Shown here: positions 7 to 38,362 of the stretch, piece after piece
How the letters are laid out: each line of letters begins with the position of its first letter
How positions within the stretch are numbered: position 1 is the stretch's first letter
Assembly (NCBI RefSeq): GCF_014204915.1
Contig: NZ_JACHMH010000001.1
Location: 9,647,501-9,711,500, forward strand
Direction: 5' to 3'
DNA length: 64,000 bases
Origin: Crossiella cryophila
Lineage (GTDB): Bacteria > Actinomycetota > Actinomycetes > Mycobacteriales > Pseudonocardiaceae
Translations under genes and position numbers: made by a program
Notes under the pieces: generated by a model
Seen by the model: only the letters and a program-made list of their open reading frames with translations
Databases searched by the model: none
What the model was told of the DNA's origin: nothing

Positions 7-80
7 GGCCAACACGGCGTCCACTTCGGCCAACACACCGTCCCATTTCGGCCAACACACGGTACGAGATCGGCCAACAC
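7..80. repeat. 22-bp-pitch GGCCAACAC repeat array (half array)
   Basis: Copies of the core GGCCAACAC begin at 7, 28, 50 and 72, a spacing of 21-22 bp, joined by linkers that resemble each other (GT followed by C-rich or TACGA sequence). All four point the same way. The array stops just short of the stop codon of the minus-strand MocR gene. It belongs to the family seen again at 8229-8447, 17835-17864, 22195-22346, 33599-33711 and 38187-38362. By the polarity of those arrays, a plus-strand gene probably ends left of the window; this is inference. Confidence 0.85.
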
Positions 81-8228: not shown

Positions 8229-8447
8229 CCCCAACACACCGTCCCCCAACGGCCAGCACACCGTCCCAGAACGGCCAACACACCGTACGACAACGGCCAA
8301 CACTGCGTACAAGAACGGCCAACACGCCGGAAGGGTGGGAACGCCTCCGGCGTGTTGGCCCGAATGGACGGTGTGTTGGCCGTTCTTGTACGGCGTGTTG
8401 GCCGTTCTTGTACGTCAGGTTGGCTGTTGTTGTACGTCGGGTTGGTT
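8229..8447. repeat. Convergent 22-bp-pitch repeat array (5 + 5 units)
   Basis: The left arm has cores GGCCAACAC (outer copies degenerate) beginning at 8229, 8251, 8273, 8295 and 8317, exactly 22 bp apart. The right arm has inverted cores GTGTTGGCC at 8352, 8373, 8395, 8417 and 8439 (21, 22, 22, 22). The arms are reverse complements around an 18-26 bp centre with an inner GCCGGA/TCCGGC stem. Linkers between cores mostly contain CGTACGANAA or CGTACAAGAA. The array fills the gap between two converging genes, fbiD and the LVIVD gene. Each arm reads GGCCAACAC in the sense direction of its adjoining gene. The outermost copies are the most decayed. Confidence 0.95.
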
Positions 8448-17095: not shown

Positions 17096-17797
17096 GTGGG
17101 ACAGCATAGCGGCATCGGAGTACTCGACAAGGCAGTGGCAGTGCTGCACGCGGTGGCAACAGACCCCTGCGGCCTGGCCGAGCTGTGCCAAAGAACAGGC
17201 CTGCCAAGGGCAACGGCACACCGCCTCGCAGTAGGCCTTGAAGTCCATCGCCTCCTCCAGCGAGGCCCCGACGGCCGCTGGCGCCCAGGCACCGCCCTGG
17301 CCGAACTGGCAGGCGGCGTAACGGATCCCCTCCTCGACGCCGCCTCAGCCGTCCTCCCCAGACTCCGGGACATCACCGGCGAAAGCGTCCAGCTCTACCG
17401 CCGAGACGGAACCCAAAGAGTCTGCGTCGCCTCAGCAGAACCCCCCGCAGGCCTAAGGGACACCGTCCCCATCGGCTCCCGCCTCCCCATGACAGCCGGC
17501 AGCGGAGCCAAAGTCCTGGCCGCCTGGTCCGACCCAACCACCCAACGCGCAGTCCTGGCCGACGCCGTCTACGGCGAGCGAACCCTCCTGGACGTAAGAC
17601 GCCGAGGCTGGGCCCAAAGCGTCGCAGAACGCGAACCAGGCGTAGCCAGCGTCAGCGCCCCCGTAAGAGACAGCACCGGCCAGGTAGTAGCCGCAGTCTC
17701 AGTCTCAGGCCCAGTAGACAGAATCGGCCGCCGCCCAGGCGCCCGCTGGGCCGCAGACCTCCTAGCCGCCGCAGAAGCCCTACAGTCCCGCCTCTAG
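17096..17797 (+). CDS. IclR-family regulator of leuCD (NdgR/LtbR-like)
   Basis: 233 aa. The N-terminal winged helix reads GVLDKAVAVLHAV, LAELCQRTGLPRATAHRLAV. The C-terminal GAF-like effector domain contains MTAGSGAKVLAAW, characteristic of NdgR/LtbR. Orthologue of Rv2989 by order. It probably represses or modulates leuCD and itself through the inverted repeat at 17063. GTG at 17096. Codon use is a little looser (more A-ending codons) than in neighbours. The 3' end is followed by two repeat units and an intrinsic terminator. Confidence 0.9.
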   Translation: MGQHSGIGVLDKAVAVLHAVATDPCGLAELCQRTGLPRATAHRLAVGLEVHRLLQRGPDGRWRPGTALAELAGGVTDPLLDAASAVLPRLRDITGESVQLYRRDGTQRVCVASAEPPAGLRDTVPIGSRLPMTAGSGAKVLAAWSDPTTQRAVLADAVYGERTLLDVRRRGWAQSVAEREPGVASVSAPVRDSTGQVVAAVSVSGPVDRIGRRPGARWAADLLAAAEALQSRL

Positions 17798-17834: not shown

Positions 17835-17864
17835 GGCCAACAAGGCGTCCACAACGGCCAACAC
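17835..17864. repeat. Two repeat units (GGCCAACAC family) after iclR
   Basis: Cores GGCCAACAA at 17835 and GGCCAACAC at 17856, 21 bp apart, in sense orientation relative to iclR. No opposing arm is present. A terminator follows at 17879. Confidence 0.8.
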
Positions 17865-20931: not shown

Positions 20932-22236
20932 ATGACTGACCAGGGCGCCACGGGGTGCGTCGTGATCGGCGGCGGACCGGCCGGGATGGTGCTGGGCCTG
21001 CTGCTGGCCCGCGCCGGGGTGCGGGTGACGGTGCTGGAGAAGCACGGGGACTTCCTGCGGGACTTCCGCGGCGACACCGTGCACCCGTCCACGCTGACCC
21101 TGCTGGACGAGCTGGGGCTGGGCGAGGAGTTCGCCAAGGTGCCGCAGCGGCGGGTGGACCGGCTGCGGGTGCAGCTGGCGGACGGCATCGTGCCCATCGG
21201 CGACCTGCGCCACCTGCCCGGCGGGCACAAGCACATCGCGCTGGTGCCGCAGTGGGACTTCCTGGACCTGCTCGCCGCGGCGAGCAGGCGTGAACCCGGG
21301 TTCGAGCTGCGGATGAACACCGAGGTCACCGGGCTGATCAGGGAGAACGGCAAGGTCGTCGGCGTGCGCCACCGCGACCGGGAGACCGGGATCAGCGGTG
21401 AGCTGCGGGCCGGGCTGACCGTGGCCTGCGACGGCCGCAACTCGATCGCGCGCGCCGCGGCCGGGCTGCCGACCAGGGAGTTCGGCGTGCCGATGGACGT
21501 GTGGTGGTTCCGGCTGCCCCGGCAGGACGGGGACCCGGCAGGCGGCATCGGCCGGTTCACCGCGGGCCACGCCGCGGTGCTGATCGACCGGGGCGAGTAC
21601 TTCCAGACCGCCTACCTGATCCGCAAGGGCTCGGACGCCCAGGTGCGCACCGAGGGGGTGCAGGCCTTCCGGGAGCGGATCAGCGCGCTGATCCCCTGGC
21701 TGGCCGACCGGATGCACACGGTGGAGTCACTGGAGGAGGTGAAGCTGCTCGACGTCCGGCTGAACCGGTTGCACCGCTGGCACACCGACGGCCTGCTGTG
21801 CATCGGCGACGCCGCGCACGCCATGTCACCGGTGTTCGGGGTGGGCATCAACCTGGCCGTGCAGGACGCGGTGGCCACCGCCCGCCTGCTCGCCACGCCA
21901 CTACGCCGCGGCCGGGTCCGCCCCGCCGACCTGGCCAGGGTGCGCCGCCGCCGCTGGCTGCCAACGGTCGTACTCCAGAGCCTGCAGCGCTTCGTGCACA
22001 AACGCCTGCTCAGCCGCACTCTCAGCAGCCAGATCAACCCCAGCGCCGGCATGCCCAAACCCATCGCGCTGATGCAACGCTTCCCGATCCTCCAGCGCAT
22101 CCCGGCCTACGTGGTCGGCATCGGCCCCCGCCCCGAACACGCCCCCACCTTCGCCCGCCGCCACCCCACCCCCACCCCTAACCCGCCCCACAACGCCCAC
22201 CCAGACGTCCAAAAACGGCCAACACACCGCCCATAA
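20932..22236 (+). CDS. FAD-dependent monooxygenase/oxidoreductase
   Basis: A 434-aa PHBH-fold flavoprotein: FAD motif GGGPAGMVLGLLLARAG, NAD(P)H/FAD DG motif ACDGRNS, and FAD ribityl motif GDAAHAMSPVFGVG. It probably hydroxylates an aromatic or lipophilic substrate; identity unknown. I prefer the ATG at 20932, nine bases after AAAAGGGG, over the ATG at 20923, which abuts that RBS. Residues after about 405 are Pro/His/Arg-rich, and the final codons are made of GGCCAACAC repeat units, so the repeat array has extended into the reading frame. Not in the mycobacterial order; an insertion between gltX and the FAH gene. Confidence 0.88.
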   Translation: MTDQGATGCVVIGGGPAGMVLGLLLARAGVRVTVLEKHGDFLRDFRGDTVHPSTLTLLDELGLGEEFAKVPQRRVDRLRVQLADGIVPIGDLRHLPGGHKHIALVPQWDFLDLLAAASRREPGFELRMNTEVTGLIRENGKVVGVRHRDRETGISGELRAGLTVACDGRNSIARAAAGLPTREFGVPMDVWWFRLPRQDGDPAGGIGRFTAGHAAVLIDRGEYFQTAYLIRKGSDAQVRTEGVQAFRERISALIPWLADRMHTVESLEEVKLLDVRLNRLHRWHTDGLLCIGDAAHAMSPVFGVGINLAVQDAVATARLLATPLRRGRVRPADLARVRRRRWLPTVVLQSLQRFVHKRLLSRTLSSQINPSAGMPKPIALMQRFPILQRIPAYVVGIGPRPEHAPTFARRHPTPTPNPPHNAHPDVQKRPTHRP

Positions 22237-22346
22237 CGGCCAACACACCGTACGAAACCGGCCAACACTCCAAGAGCGAAAACCCCGCCCCGAGTGTTGG
22301 CCGATGTCGTACGCAGTGTTGGCCGTTTTTGTACGCCGTGTTGGCC
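22195..22346. repeat. Convergent 22-bp-pitch repeat array (4 + 3 units)
   Basis: Left-arm cores are at 22195 (decayed), 22217, 22238 and 22260; right-arm inverted cores are at 22294, 22316 and 22338, so pitch is 21-22 bp. The centre has ACTC/GAGT ends around a purine-rich 21-bp loop. It spans the gap between the converging FAD monooxygenase and FAH genes. The two leftmost units lie within the monooxygenase frame, whose TAA stop (22234-22236) falls in the linker between units 2 and 3. Confidence 0.93.
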
Positions 22347-33598: not shown

Positions 33599-33711
33599 GA
33601 CCAACGAGACGTACGACAACGGCCAACACTCCGGCGGCGGTTCGAGCGACCTCCGCGAGTGTTGGCCGTTGTCGTACGGGGTGTTGGCCGTTGTCGTACC
33701 TGGTGTTGGCC
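33599..33711. repeat. Convergent 22-bp-pitch repeat array (1-2 + 3 units)
   Basis: The left arm has one good core at 33621 (a decayed one at 33599). Right-arm inverted cores are at 33659, 33681 and 33703, exactly 22 bp apart. The left and first right unit with their GTACGACAA linkers form a long near-perfect hairpin. The right arm directly follows the serA stop (minus strand). Here the left neighbour is the 5' side of a minus-strand gene, so this array is not between convergent genes. Confidence 0.92.
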
Positions 33712-33724
33712 GATCTGGGTCAGG

Positions 33725-35323
33725 TCAGAAGGAGATGGCCTTCACGGTGCGCGCGCCAACGGTGGCGCCGATGGGCTCGAGCACGCCGGCGTCGACCGGG
33801 CGGTCCACCCGCAGCAGCATGGTGGCGTCCGCGCCGTCGCGGGTCTGGGAGATCTGCGCGGCCTCCACGTTGACCCCGGCCTCGCCGAGCAGGGTGCCGA
33901 CGGTGCCCATCACGCCGGGGCGGTCCGGGTACTCCAGCAGCAGCACGTGGCCCTCGGCGCGCAGGTCGAAGCTGCGGCCGTTGACCTCGACCAGCTTCTC
34001 CACCTGGTTGCGGCCGCTGAGCGAGCCGGAGACGCTGTAGGCGGTGCCGTCCGCGCCGACCGTGCGCACGGTGACCAGGCTGCGGTGGTTGGCGCTCTCG
34101 GACTCGGTGACCACCCGCACGTCCACACCGAGGTCGGCGGCCAGCTTGGGCGCGTTGACGAAGGTGACCTGCTCGTCGACCAGGTGCGCGAACACCCCGC
34201 GCAGCGCGGCCAGCGGCAGCACCCGGACGTCCTCAGTGGACAGTTCGCCGCGCACCTCGACGGTGACCGAGACCGGGGCCTTGTTGGCGCCGAAGGCGGC
34301 CAGCACCGCGCCCAGCTTCTGGGTCAGCGGCAGGTACGGCCGGACCTCCTCGCCGACCACGCCGCCGCCCTGCACGTTCACCGCGTCCGGCACGAAGTCC
34401 CCGCGCAGCGCGAGCACCACGGACCGGGCCACGTCGGTGCCCGCGCGGTCCTGGGCCTCGCCGGTGGAGGCGCCGAGGTGCGGGGTCACCACGGCCTTGG
34501 GCAGCTCGAAGAGCGGGCTCTCGGTGCACGGCTCGGTGACGAAGACGTCGATGCCGGCGCCGCCGACCTGGCCCTCGCGGATGGCGTCGGCCAGCGCGGC
34601 CTCGTCGATCAGACCGCCGCGGGCGGCGTTGACGATCAGCACGCCCTTCTTGGTCTTGGCCAGCTGCTCCTTGCCGATCAGACCGAGGGTCTCCGGGGTC
34701 TTGGGCAGGTGGATGGAGAACGCGTCCGCGCGCTCCAGCAGCTCCTCCAGGCTGACCAGCTCGATGCCGAGCTGGGCGGCGCGGGCCGGGGCCACGTAGG
34801 GGTCGTAGGCGATCAGCGTGGTGCCGAAGGCGGCGATCCGCTGGGCGAAGAGCTGGCCGATCTTGCCGAGGCCGACCACGCCGACGGTCTTGCCGTTGAG
34901 TTCCACGCCGCCGTAGGCGCTGCGCTTCCACTGGCCGCTGCGCAGGCTGGCGTCGGCCGGGGCGATGTTGCGGGCCACCGCGAGCAGCAGCGCGACCGCG
35001 TGCTCGGCGGCGGAGACGATGTTGGAGGTGGGCGCGTTGACCACCATCACGCCGCGCGCGGTGGCGGCGGGCACCTCGACGTTGTCCAGGCCGACACCGG
35101 CCCTGGCCACGACCTTGAGCTTGCTGGTCGCGGCGAACACCTCGGCGTCGACCTTGGTCGCCGAGCGCACGAGCAGCGCGTCGGCCTCGGCCACCGCGGA
35201 CAGCAGTGCGGTGCGGTCGGTGCCGTCGACGTGCCGGATCTCGACGTCGTCGCCGAGCACCTCCAGCACCGAGGGCGCGAGTTTCTCCGCGATCAGCACG
35301 ACGGGGCGGTTGGGGTTGGTCAC
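33725..35323 (-). CDS. serA: D-3-phosphoglycerate dehydrogenase
   Basis: A 532-aa type 1 PGDH that begins serine synthesis. The NAD-binding motif is VGLGKIGQLFAQR. Catalytic residues are in NAARGGLIDE (Arg), the Glu region after it, and VTPHLGAST (His). The intervening allosteric substrate-binding domain and a C-terminal ACT domain (DRPGVMGTVGTLLGEAGVNV) predict serine feedback, as in the mycobacterial enzyme. GTG at 35323 has AGGAG seven bases upstream. Orthologue of Rv2996c. Confidence 0.96.
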   Translation of the reverse strand: MTNPNRPVVLIAEKLAPSVLEVLGDDVEIRHVDGTDRTALLSAVAEADALLVRSATKVDAEVFAATSKLKVVARAGVGLDNVEVPAATARGVMVVNAPTSNIVSAAEHAVALLLAVARNIAPADASLRSGQWKRSAYGGVELNGKTVGVVGLGKIGQLFAQRIAAFGTTLIAYDPYVAPARAAQLGIELVSLEELLERADAFSIHLPKTPETLGLIGKEQLAKTKKGVLIVNAARGGLIDEAALADAIREGQVGGAGIDVFVTEPCTESPLFELPKAVVTPHLGASTGEAQDRAGTDVARSVVLALRGDFVPDAVNVQGGGVVGEEVRPYLPLTQKLGAVLAAFGANKAPVSVTVEVRGELSTEDVRVLPLAALRGVFAHLVDEQVTFVNAPKLAADLGVDVRVVTESESANHRSLVTVRTVGADGTAYSVSGSLSGRNQVEKLVEVNGRSFDLRAEGHVLLLEYPDRPGVMGTVGTLLGEAGVNVEAAQISQTRDGADATMLLRVDRPVDAGVLEPIGATVGARTVKAISF

Positions 35324-38186: not shown

Positions 38187-38362
38187 GCCCACCCCCGCGT
38201 ACGACAACAGCCAACACGGCGTACAAGAACGGCCAACACGGCGTACGACTTCGGCCAACACTCCGGGTGGGTTGGGCTTTGCTCGGAGTGTTGGCCGTTC
38301 TCGTACGGGGTGTTGGCCGTTGTGGGACTGGGTGTTGGCTGTTGTGGGGTGGCGGGTGGGGG
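38187..38362. repeat. Convergent 22-bp-pitch repeat array (4 + 3-4 units)
   Basis: Left cores are at 38187 (decayed), 38209, 38231 and 38253; right inverted cores are at 38288, 38310 and 38332, with a degenerate copy near 38354, all 22 bp apart. The centre is closed by ACTCCG/CGGAGT. The right arm directly follows the stop of the minus-strand gene at 38363. Confidence 0.93.

Follow-up and report, generated by a model that had tools for sequence, protein, structure and literature searches.

Extragenic arrays of a phased 21- to 22-bp repeat at gene 3' ends in Crossiella cryophila and their likely role at transcript ends

The arrays in the window

The window (the whole stretch of DNA that was analysed, 64 kb in length, from the soil bacterium Crossiella cryophila) contains six intergenic sites at which a 9-bp core, GGCCAACAC, is iterated. 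An earlier note on this DNA had listed six such sites, and all six are present:

7..80, + strand: array A1, four exact cores at 7, 28, 50 and 72
8229..8325, + strand: array A2, left arm, five units, the outer two decayed
8326..8351, unstranded: array A2, central hairpin, seen by eye and in the fold
8352..8447, - strand: array A2, right arm, exact cores at 8352, 8373 and 8395, then decayed units
17835..17864, + strand: array A3, two cores, one exact and one with 1 mismatch
22217..22346, no single strand: array A4, three + cores facing three - cores, in a gap that is convergent by gene calls
33621..33711, no single strand: array A5, one + core facing three - cores, in a tandem gap
38209..38340, no single strand: array A6, three + cores facing three - cores, the outer with 1 mismatch, in a gap that is convergent by gene calls

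With one mismatch or none allowed, the core occurs 88 times in the window, against a mean of 25.7 (sd 5.2, maximum 49) in 100 shuffles. A1 may lack its other arm because the site begins at the window edge; its right neighbour gene has its 3' end at 85. The left cores of A2 start at 8229 (2 mismatches), 8251 (1 mismatch), 8273, 8295 and 8317 (all exact), and the pitch is 22 with some 21. This array had been described as five units facing five. The five left units are there, but the right side consists of three cores plus remnants, and A2 is counted as five facing three since the further right units exceed 2 mismatches. As DNA, 8229-8447 folds with z = -8.6. A3 lies between the probable end of a + strand open reading frame (17096-17797) and two - strand tRNA genes; its gap was tallied as tandem because the gene caller skipped that reading frame. 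Decayed units extend A4 to about 22195, and A5 is located 14 bp beyond the 3' end of the gene at 33725-35323 (-). At the gathering score, Rfam (which holds described families only) matched two tRNAs in the whole window and none of the arrays.

The repeat in the chromosome

Below, G000 is the C. cryophila source genome and G001 to G004 are other Crossiella genomes. The 10.06-Mb G000 chromosome contains 289 forward and 281 reverse pairs of exact GGCCAACAC spaced by 12-13 bases, while the same pattern read backwards has no match, so the arrays do form a dispersed family, as had been claimed. The window, 80 evenly spaced stretches and a further 24 that were targeted add up to 1.946 Mb of G000 and contain 362 exact cores. 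Where two of them on one strand lie no more than 70 bp apart, the distance is always 21 (22 cases), 22 (156 cases), 42-44 or 63-66, which bears out the strict 21-22 bp pitch and is compatible with cores on one helical face. A search of G000 that assumed no core returned CGGCCAACA/GGCCAACAC as the top 9-mers recurring at a lag of 21-22.

Among the matches listed, no array pair falls in the 1.34 Mb from 398,863 to 1,738,839 of the G000 chromosome. The ten sampled stretches of this region contain 31 convergent gaps; elsewhere 21 of 203 hold arrays. There may be a second array-thin region at about 4.9-5.7 Mb, again among the matches listed. Two near-alike arrays are found about 10 kb apart (143,792-143,922 and 153,707-153,837): their left linkers are identical, their centres nearly so, and one right linker differs.

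The repeat unit and the arms

The typical element is two opposed arms, each of about three 21-22 bp units, flanking a short hairpin. The 79 clusters comprise 29 convergent (+ then -), 14 divergent (- then +), 34 that are single-armed by strict cores and two mixed ones. In G000 the innermost facing cores start 34-38 bp apart in 28 of 41 convergent cases and 43-45 bp apart in 11; the centres are mostly hairpins by eye (for example GCGCGGAGGGTTGAAACCCTCGCCGGC), and some recur at several loci. Centres in G003 are longer and more varied. The earlier observation that outer copies are decayed and inner ones clean holds for 43 convergent arrays of sampled G000, selected for exact innermost cores, in which the fraction of exact units falls with rank from the centre (second, 71/86; third, 33/75; fourth, 5/60; fifth, 0/47).

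The linkers are partly fixed and partly free. Among 156 exact 22-bp pairs in G000, with 74 distinct linkers, positions 13, 14, 16, 18 and 22 are invariant (156/156) whereas position 10 is free (0.02 bit), and the unit can be written C N5 C GGCCAACAC. The linker word CGTACGA singled out earlier does occur, but as just one variant of N-N-N-G-T-(A/C)-C-N-A-... Seven bases before the next core (position -7), G000 always has a C (156/156 at pitch 22 and 22/22 at pitch 21), as does G003 (59/59), where the C at -1 is present in 51/59 and the linkers belong to another dialect, around GAGGTACGGGATC. Amycolatopsis acidicola has a 21-bp pitch, and none of its linker bases is better kept than the C at -7 (1.81 bits; 80 pairs, 68 linkers). 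The same base is invariant in genome G233, also of 21-bp pitch (2.0 bits, 21 pairs), and not outstanding in G222 (1.03 bits, only 5 pairs). One G233 array (L304:4659-4850) has a left arm that repeats GGCCAACAC and a facing arm of GGCAAACAC; each arm is uniform within and unlike the other.

Placement relative to genes

The arrays are strongly biased toward gene 3' ends, a check that the earlier note had set. Genes were called with a custom codon-usage script. In an even sample of G000, made up of 80 stretches of 20 kb each and of the window, itself chosen on account of the finding, arrays occupy 21/234 convergent, 9/860 tandem and 1/230 divergent gaps, with 5 of 36 array loci, at stretch edges, left unclassed. 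By Fisher's test the convergent excess has a P value of 7e-6 against divergent and 9e-9 against tandem gaps. Further stretches were chosen by their array matches (24 targeted ones in G000, 16 in G003 and 20 others). With the targeted loci included, 60 G000 loci were classified as 34 convergent, 23 tandem and 3 divergent, with five more at edges. The distance from array edge to stop codon is mostly 2-68 bp, and in 18 of the 23 tandem-gap cases the array is 2-61 bp from the stop codon. Array-picked loci of G003 (n=18) number 9 convergent, 8 tandem and 1 divergent; those of the Amycolatopsis clade (n=22) number 13 convergent, 7 tandem, 1 divergent and 1 at an edge, and one tandem array of the latter falls inside a called gene.

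Folding and arm covariation

All 44 two-armed clusters fold better than their shuffles (z<=-3; median -9.6), and none of 34 single-arm clusters folds well alone. A strong hairpin past the stop codon in a convergent gap is thus a property solely of the two-armed clusters. Strong folds (z<=-3) are also common in sampled array-free gaps that are convergent (47/60, drawn from gaps of 50-250 bp), and less so in tandem (14/60) and divergent ones (7/60). Nineteen loci have one strict arm within 1 kb; by eye, a single core or decayed units form the facing arm at several of them, and at some (for example L148) no partner arm was seen.

Facing arms are not consistently matched. The 39 arm pairs of G000 have 71 matches at free positions against 80.8 expected (206/3000 nulls at or below). 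An apparent avoidance of matching between G000 arms, with 1921/2000 nulls reaching the observed value at first, faded as data were added, and no claim is made of it. The G003 result is mixed: convergent arms have 43 matches against 41.8 expected (13 pairs), divergent arms 58 against 52.8 (17 pairs; 2836/3000 nulls at or below), and position 17 is above expectation in both. Since facing linkers are not consistently alike beyond chance, RNA pairing alone fails to explain how the unit is kept. Rho (rut) sites are disfavoured by the occurrence of both arm orientations.

Orthologous sites in other Crossiella species

The six sites in four relatives give 24 cases, of which 11 have an array or array-like remnant, one has no located orthologue and 12 are array-less by eye. 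Six of these 12 gaps have a perfect stem of 9-12 bp that was reached by no more than 5/100 shuffles, one has an 11-bp stem reached by 2/20 shuffles, and five have no stem beyond chance; for two of the 12 (the A1 gaps of G003 and G004) a single flank served as anchor, and many hairpin and array-like calls in relatives were made by eye. At the A1 place, array-like sequence is present in G001 and G002 and no array was seen in G003 or G004. The A2 site carries arrays in G000, G001 (a variant) and G002 (in the other orientation), a 9-bp stem in G004 and, in G003, a 7-bp stem matched by 33/100 shuffles. At A3, G001 has degenerate array-like sequence by eye. A4 has an array-like counterpart by eye in G001 and no array in the orthologous gaps of G002, G003 and G004. 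The A5 site holds arrays with differing linkers in four Crossiella genomes (G000 to G003) and a 12-bp perfect stem in G004. In another 100 kb of G000, each of the two arrays is matched by array-like sequence in G001, in one case seen from the right flank only, and a single array on the G001 side is without a G000 counterpart because the G000 gap differs. These comparisons, which the earlier note had called for, suggest that positions tend to persist while the sequence turns over: arrays are retained at several sites with their sequence replaced.

In G001 the orthologue of 22195-22346 is split by a prophage-like insert of about 32 kb, as if A4 had served as its integration site, judging from gene layout and protein starts.

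Distribution across genomes

A match at any gap of 1-31 was found in 32 of 249 family genomes. Pair counts are 87, 164, 251 and 570 in four of the five Crossiella genomes and two (1+1) in G004. A second genus (g26) has 120 pairs in G233, 50 in G222, 11 in G269 and seven in G169; it is taken to be Amycolatopsis because G269 shares matches with A. alkalitolerans. A. acidicola, which appears to be genome G174, has 139 pairs. G013 has 10, every other family genome has five or fewer, and controls reach three. Within the genomes searched, only Crossiella and some Amycolatopsis carry the family.

A collection-wide scan also returned, among the matches listed, GGCCAACAC arrays in rumen Bacteroidales, Hymenobacter and Magnetococcales. 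Of 393 Bacteroidales genomes, however, five have matches and five have control matches, so that no enrichment is seen; one of the five is G183 (8 pairs), by which the order had been chosen, and the other four have their matches at other pitches. A cross-phylum family was rejected and, in the absence of enrichment, the core shared with Bacteroidales is taken as chance. Rumen Bacteroidales have 22-bp tandem arrays of their own (L043, L049, L050, L108, L113 and L034), mostly apparently intergenic. A plasmid collection returned distant matches only, most at 60-80% identity. The earlier statement that no named family has this form agrees with the open-licence PMC literature, in which, among the matches listed, the repeat is undescribed.

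Known repeat families and alternative explanations

In passages of PMC3733652, PMC3116915 and PMC2817692, REP, BIME and REPIN sequences are described as extragenic, present in hundreds of copies, forming hairpins as inverted pairs and favouring convergent and unidirectional gaps, with a few tandem REP arrays known. The Crossiella arrays resemble them in being extragenic, in their hundreds of copies, in their hairpin-forming inverted pairs and in preferring convergent and unidirectional gaps, and differ in layout, with units in tandem every 21-22 bp where REPs alternate. A REP is a palindrome of 20-40 bp tagged GTAG or CGTC at one end; the array unit is non-palindromic on inspection, and its linker word in the 156 pitch-22 pairs of G000 is GTAC (137) or GTCC (19) and never GTAG, although the word CGTC occurs inside some linkers. 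The transposase domain Y1_Tnp (PF01797) was found in three of 16 genomes (G000, with one in-frame TGA, G001 and G016), and no Y1_Tnp/RAYT transposase was found in the array-rich G002, G003, G233, G222 and G174, on which ground RAYT/REP mobility was rejected. The arrays therefore lack two defining features of REP/BIME (the transposase and the tagged palindrome); they are extragenic terminator-associated repeats, REP/BIME-like in working and not REP/BIME.

The strongest rival, considered possible though unlikely, is a REP- or MITE-like selfish miniature element that copies itself and persists chiefly in 3' gaps, since it does harm when inserted elsewhere. The hairpin would then be a transposition structure and termination incidental. 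Consistent with this are the patchy presence among genomes, the lack of A4 in three of four relatives, the lack of pairs at 398.9 kb-1.739 Mb among the matches listed, the hairpin-forming inverted doublets reported for REPINs in a portion of PMC3116915, and the recurrence at distant loci (85-97% identity) of arrays together with their flanks and of composites in which two arrays enclose a 700-bp element. Against it, the Y1_Tnp domain is absent from the five array-rich genomes, a target duplication at A4 is not visible by eye, sites are kept between species while their sequence is replaced, and adjacent units of G000 are near random at free positions and invariant at the others. The ends of Tn7 carry TnsB sites, each about 22 bp long, lined up in tandem and in opposed groups. 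The arrays are similar in layout; in an unsystematic view, no transposase was seen between the arms.

The element in the composites is non-coding and a repeat in its own right: it is about 600-700 bp long, consists of large hairpins and is found in convergent gaps. Its copies are:

L169:4310-5000, 700-bp repeat
L196:2336-3030, 700-bp repeat
L196:15925-16602, 700-bp repeat
L137:11970-12705, 700-bp repeat

The L169 copy and the two L196 copies are 87-94% identical to one another, and one copy folds with z -12.4. By eye, array arms lie outside the repeat in G000 and G001, and it is bare in G002 and G004. Matches were found in 4/150 family genomes, G003 not among them (3 candidates scored per genome), and Rfam gave one match only, far below its gathering score. 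The composites exist in several similar copies, which lends the mobile-element reading some probability.

A DNA-level anchor (gyrase or nucleoid-protein sites) that relieves positive supercoils between convergent genes, as proposed for BIMEs, is rather improbable. Convergent placement, a pitch of two helical turns with variable linkers and a fixed core, and arms without consistent covariation all accord with it. The centres, however, are hairpin-like by eye, there is no direct evidence for an anchor, and RNA 3' ends are indicated instead because 6/12 array-less orthologous gaps have terminator-like hairpins.

Functionless tandem repeats grown by neutral slippage are very improbable. Their tandem form and decayed outer units would fit, but the core is fixed and common to genera with different linkers, and placement across gap types is strongly biased. 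Slippage expansion, suggested earlier, has no clear support in G000, where adjacent same-arm linkers agree at 2.31 of 5 free positions against 2.16 at random (647/3000 nulls reach this value) and 3/45 pairs are identical (1.1 expected). G003 does show greater likeness between neighbouring linkers than at random (63/3000 nulls; 5/32 identical against 0.9 expected).

Neisseria and Haemophilus uptake sequences have a core of about 9-10 bp, many copies and some inverted pairs, according to part of PMC1590033. The short core, high copy number and inverted pairs of the arrays are similar, but the arrays are tandem and phased. Uptake sequences of Neisseria and Haemophilus can serve as terminators. 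A DUS/USS-like signal that biased uptake maintains, with occasional doubling to form terminators, would account for hundreds of copies of a 9-bp core, often in inverted pairs at gene ends, but it is hardly credible and was rejected, since isolated cores show no excess: 39 were counted, whereas in 1.664 Mb an order-4 model predicts 61 cores, isolated or not.

Proposed function

Stem-loops of bacteria prefer convergent spaces, as stated in a section of PMC1590033. The arrays resemble bidirectional hairpin terminators in occupying the same gaps and forming strong hairpins, and differ from them in sharing a repeated, sequence-constrained unit across many loci. Ordinary terminators are not known to have such a shared sequence.

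The reading preferred here, with a probability of roughly one half, is that the arrays are lineage-specific extragenic 3'-end elements, likely acting as a two-way transcription stop and insulator, whose unit is probably recognised by a protein. We infer termination from the placement after stop codons, the hairpin form and the simple hairpins at some of the relatives' junctions, which make a two-way stop the best reading. The arrays stand directly after stop codons, mainly between convergent genes; in the proposed mechanism, they would stop transcription there from both sides and insulate the genes, replacing a simple hairpin terminator such as related species have at some of these junctions. 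The combination of fixed and free bases, the lack of consistent covariation and the core common to genera point to a reader of sequence, most simply a protein, and sequence-specific recognition fits better than pure RNA pairing. Speculatively, this putative protein would bind units two helical turns apart and, once bound, may block polymerase or hold the 3' end; no candidate array-binding protein was found. Several observations run against the stop reading: 3/60 classified loci are between divergent genes, both arm orientations occur, no single arm folds well (0/34), G004 is nearly array-free, and in 5/12 array-less orthologous gaps no stem exceeds chance.

A more far-reaching version, put forward as doubtful, is a dedicated transcription-stop system in which a putative protein acts on phased 16-22 bp sites at gene 3' ends chromosome-wide. 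The site would have drifted into dialects (Crossiella G000 to G002; Crossiella G003; Amycolatopsis, at 21-bp pitch), and whole sets of sites would track the protein at fixed gene junctions. If this were true, a dedicated terminator-binding factor would insulate bacterial genes.

The U-tract of textbook terminators is often missing in high-GC actinobacteria, and the arrays bear on how such bacteria end transcripts between convergent genes. One repeat family stands in for simple hairpins at some junctions, and its base pattern suggests a factor acting in trans. The same junctions with arrays, without them and with arrays of a different dialect in close relatives constitute a natural experiment.
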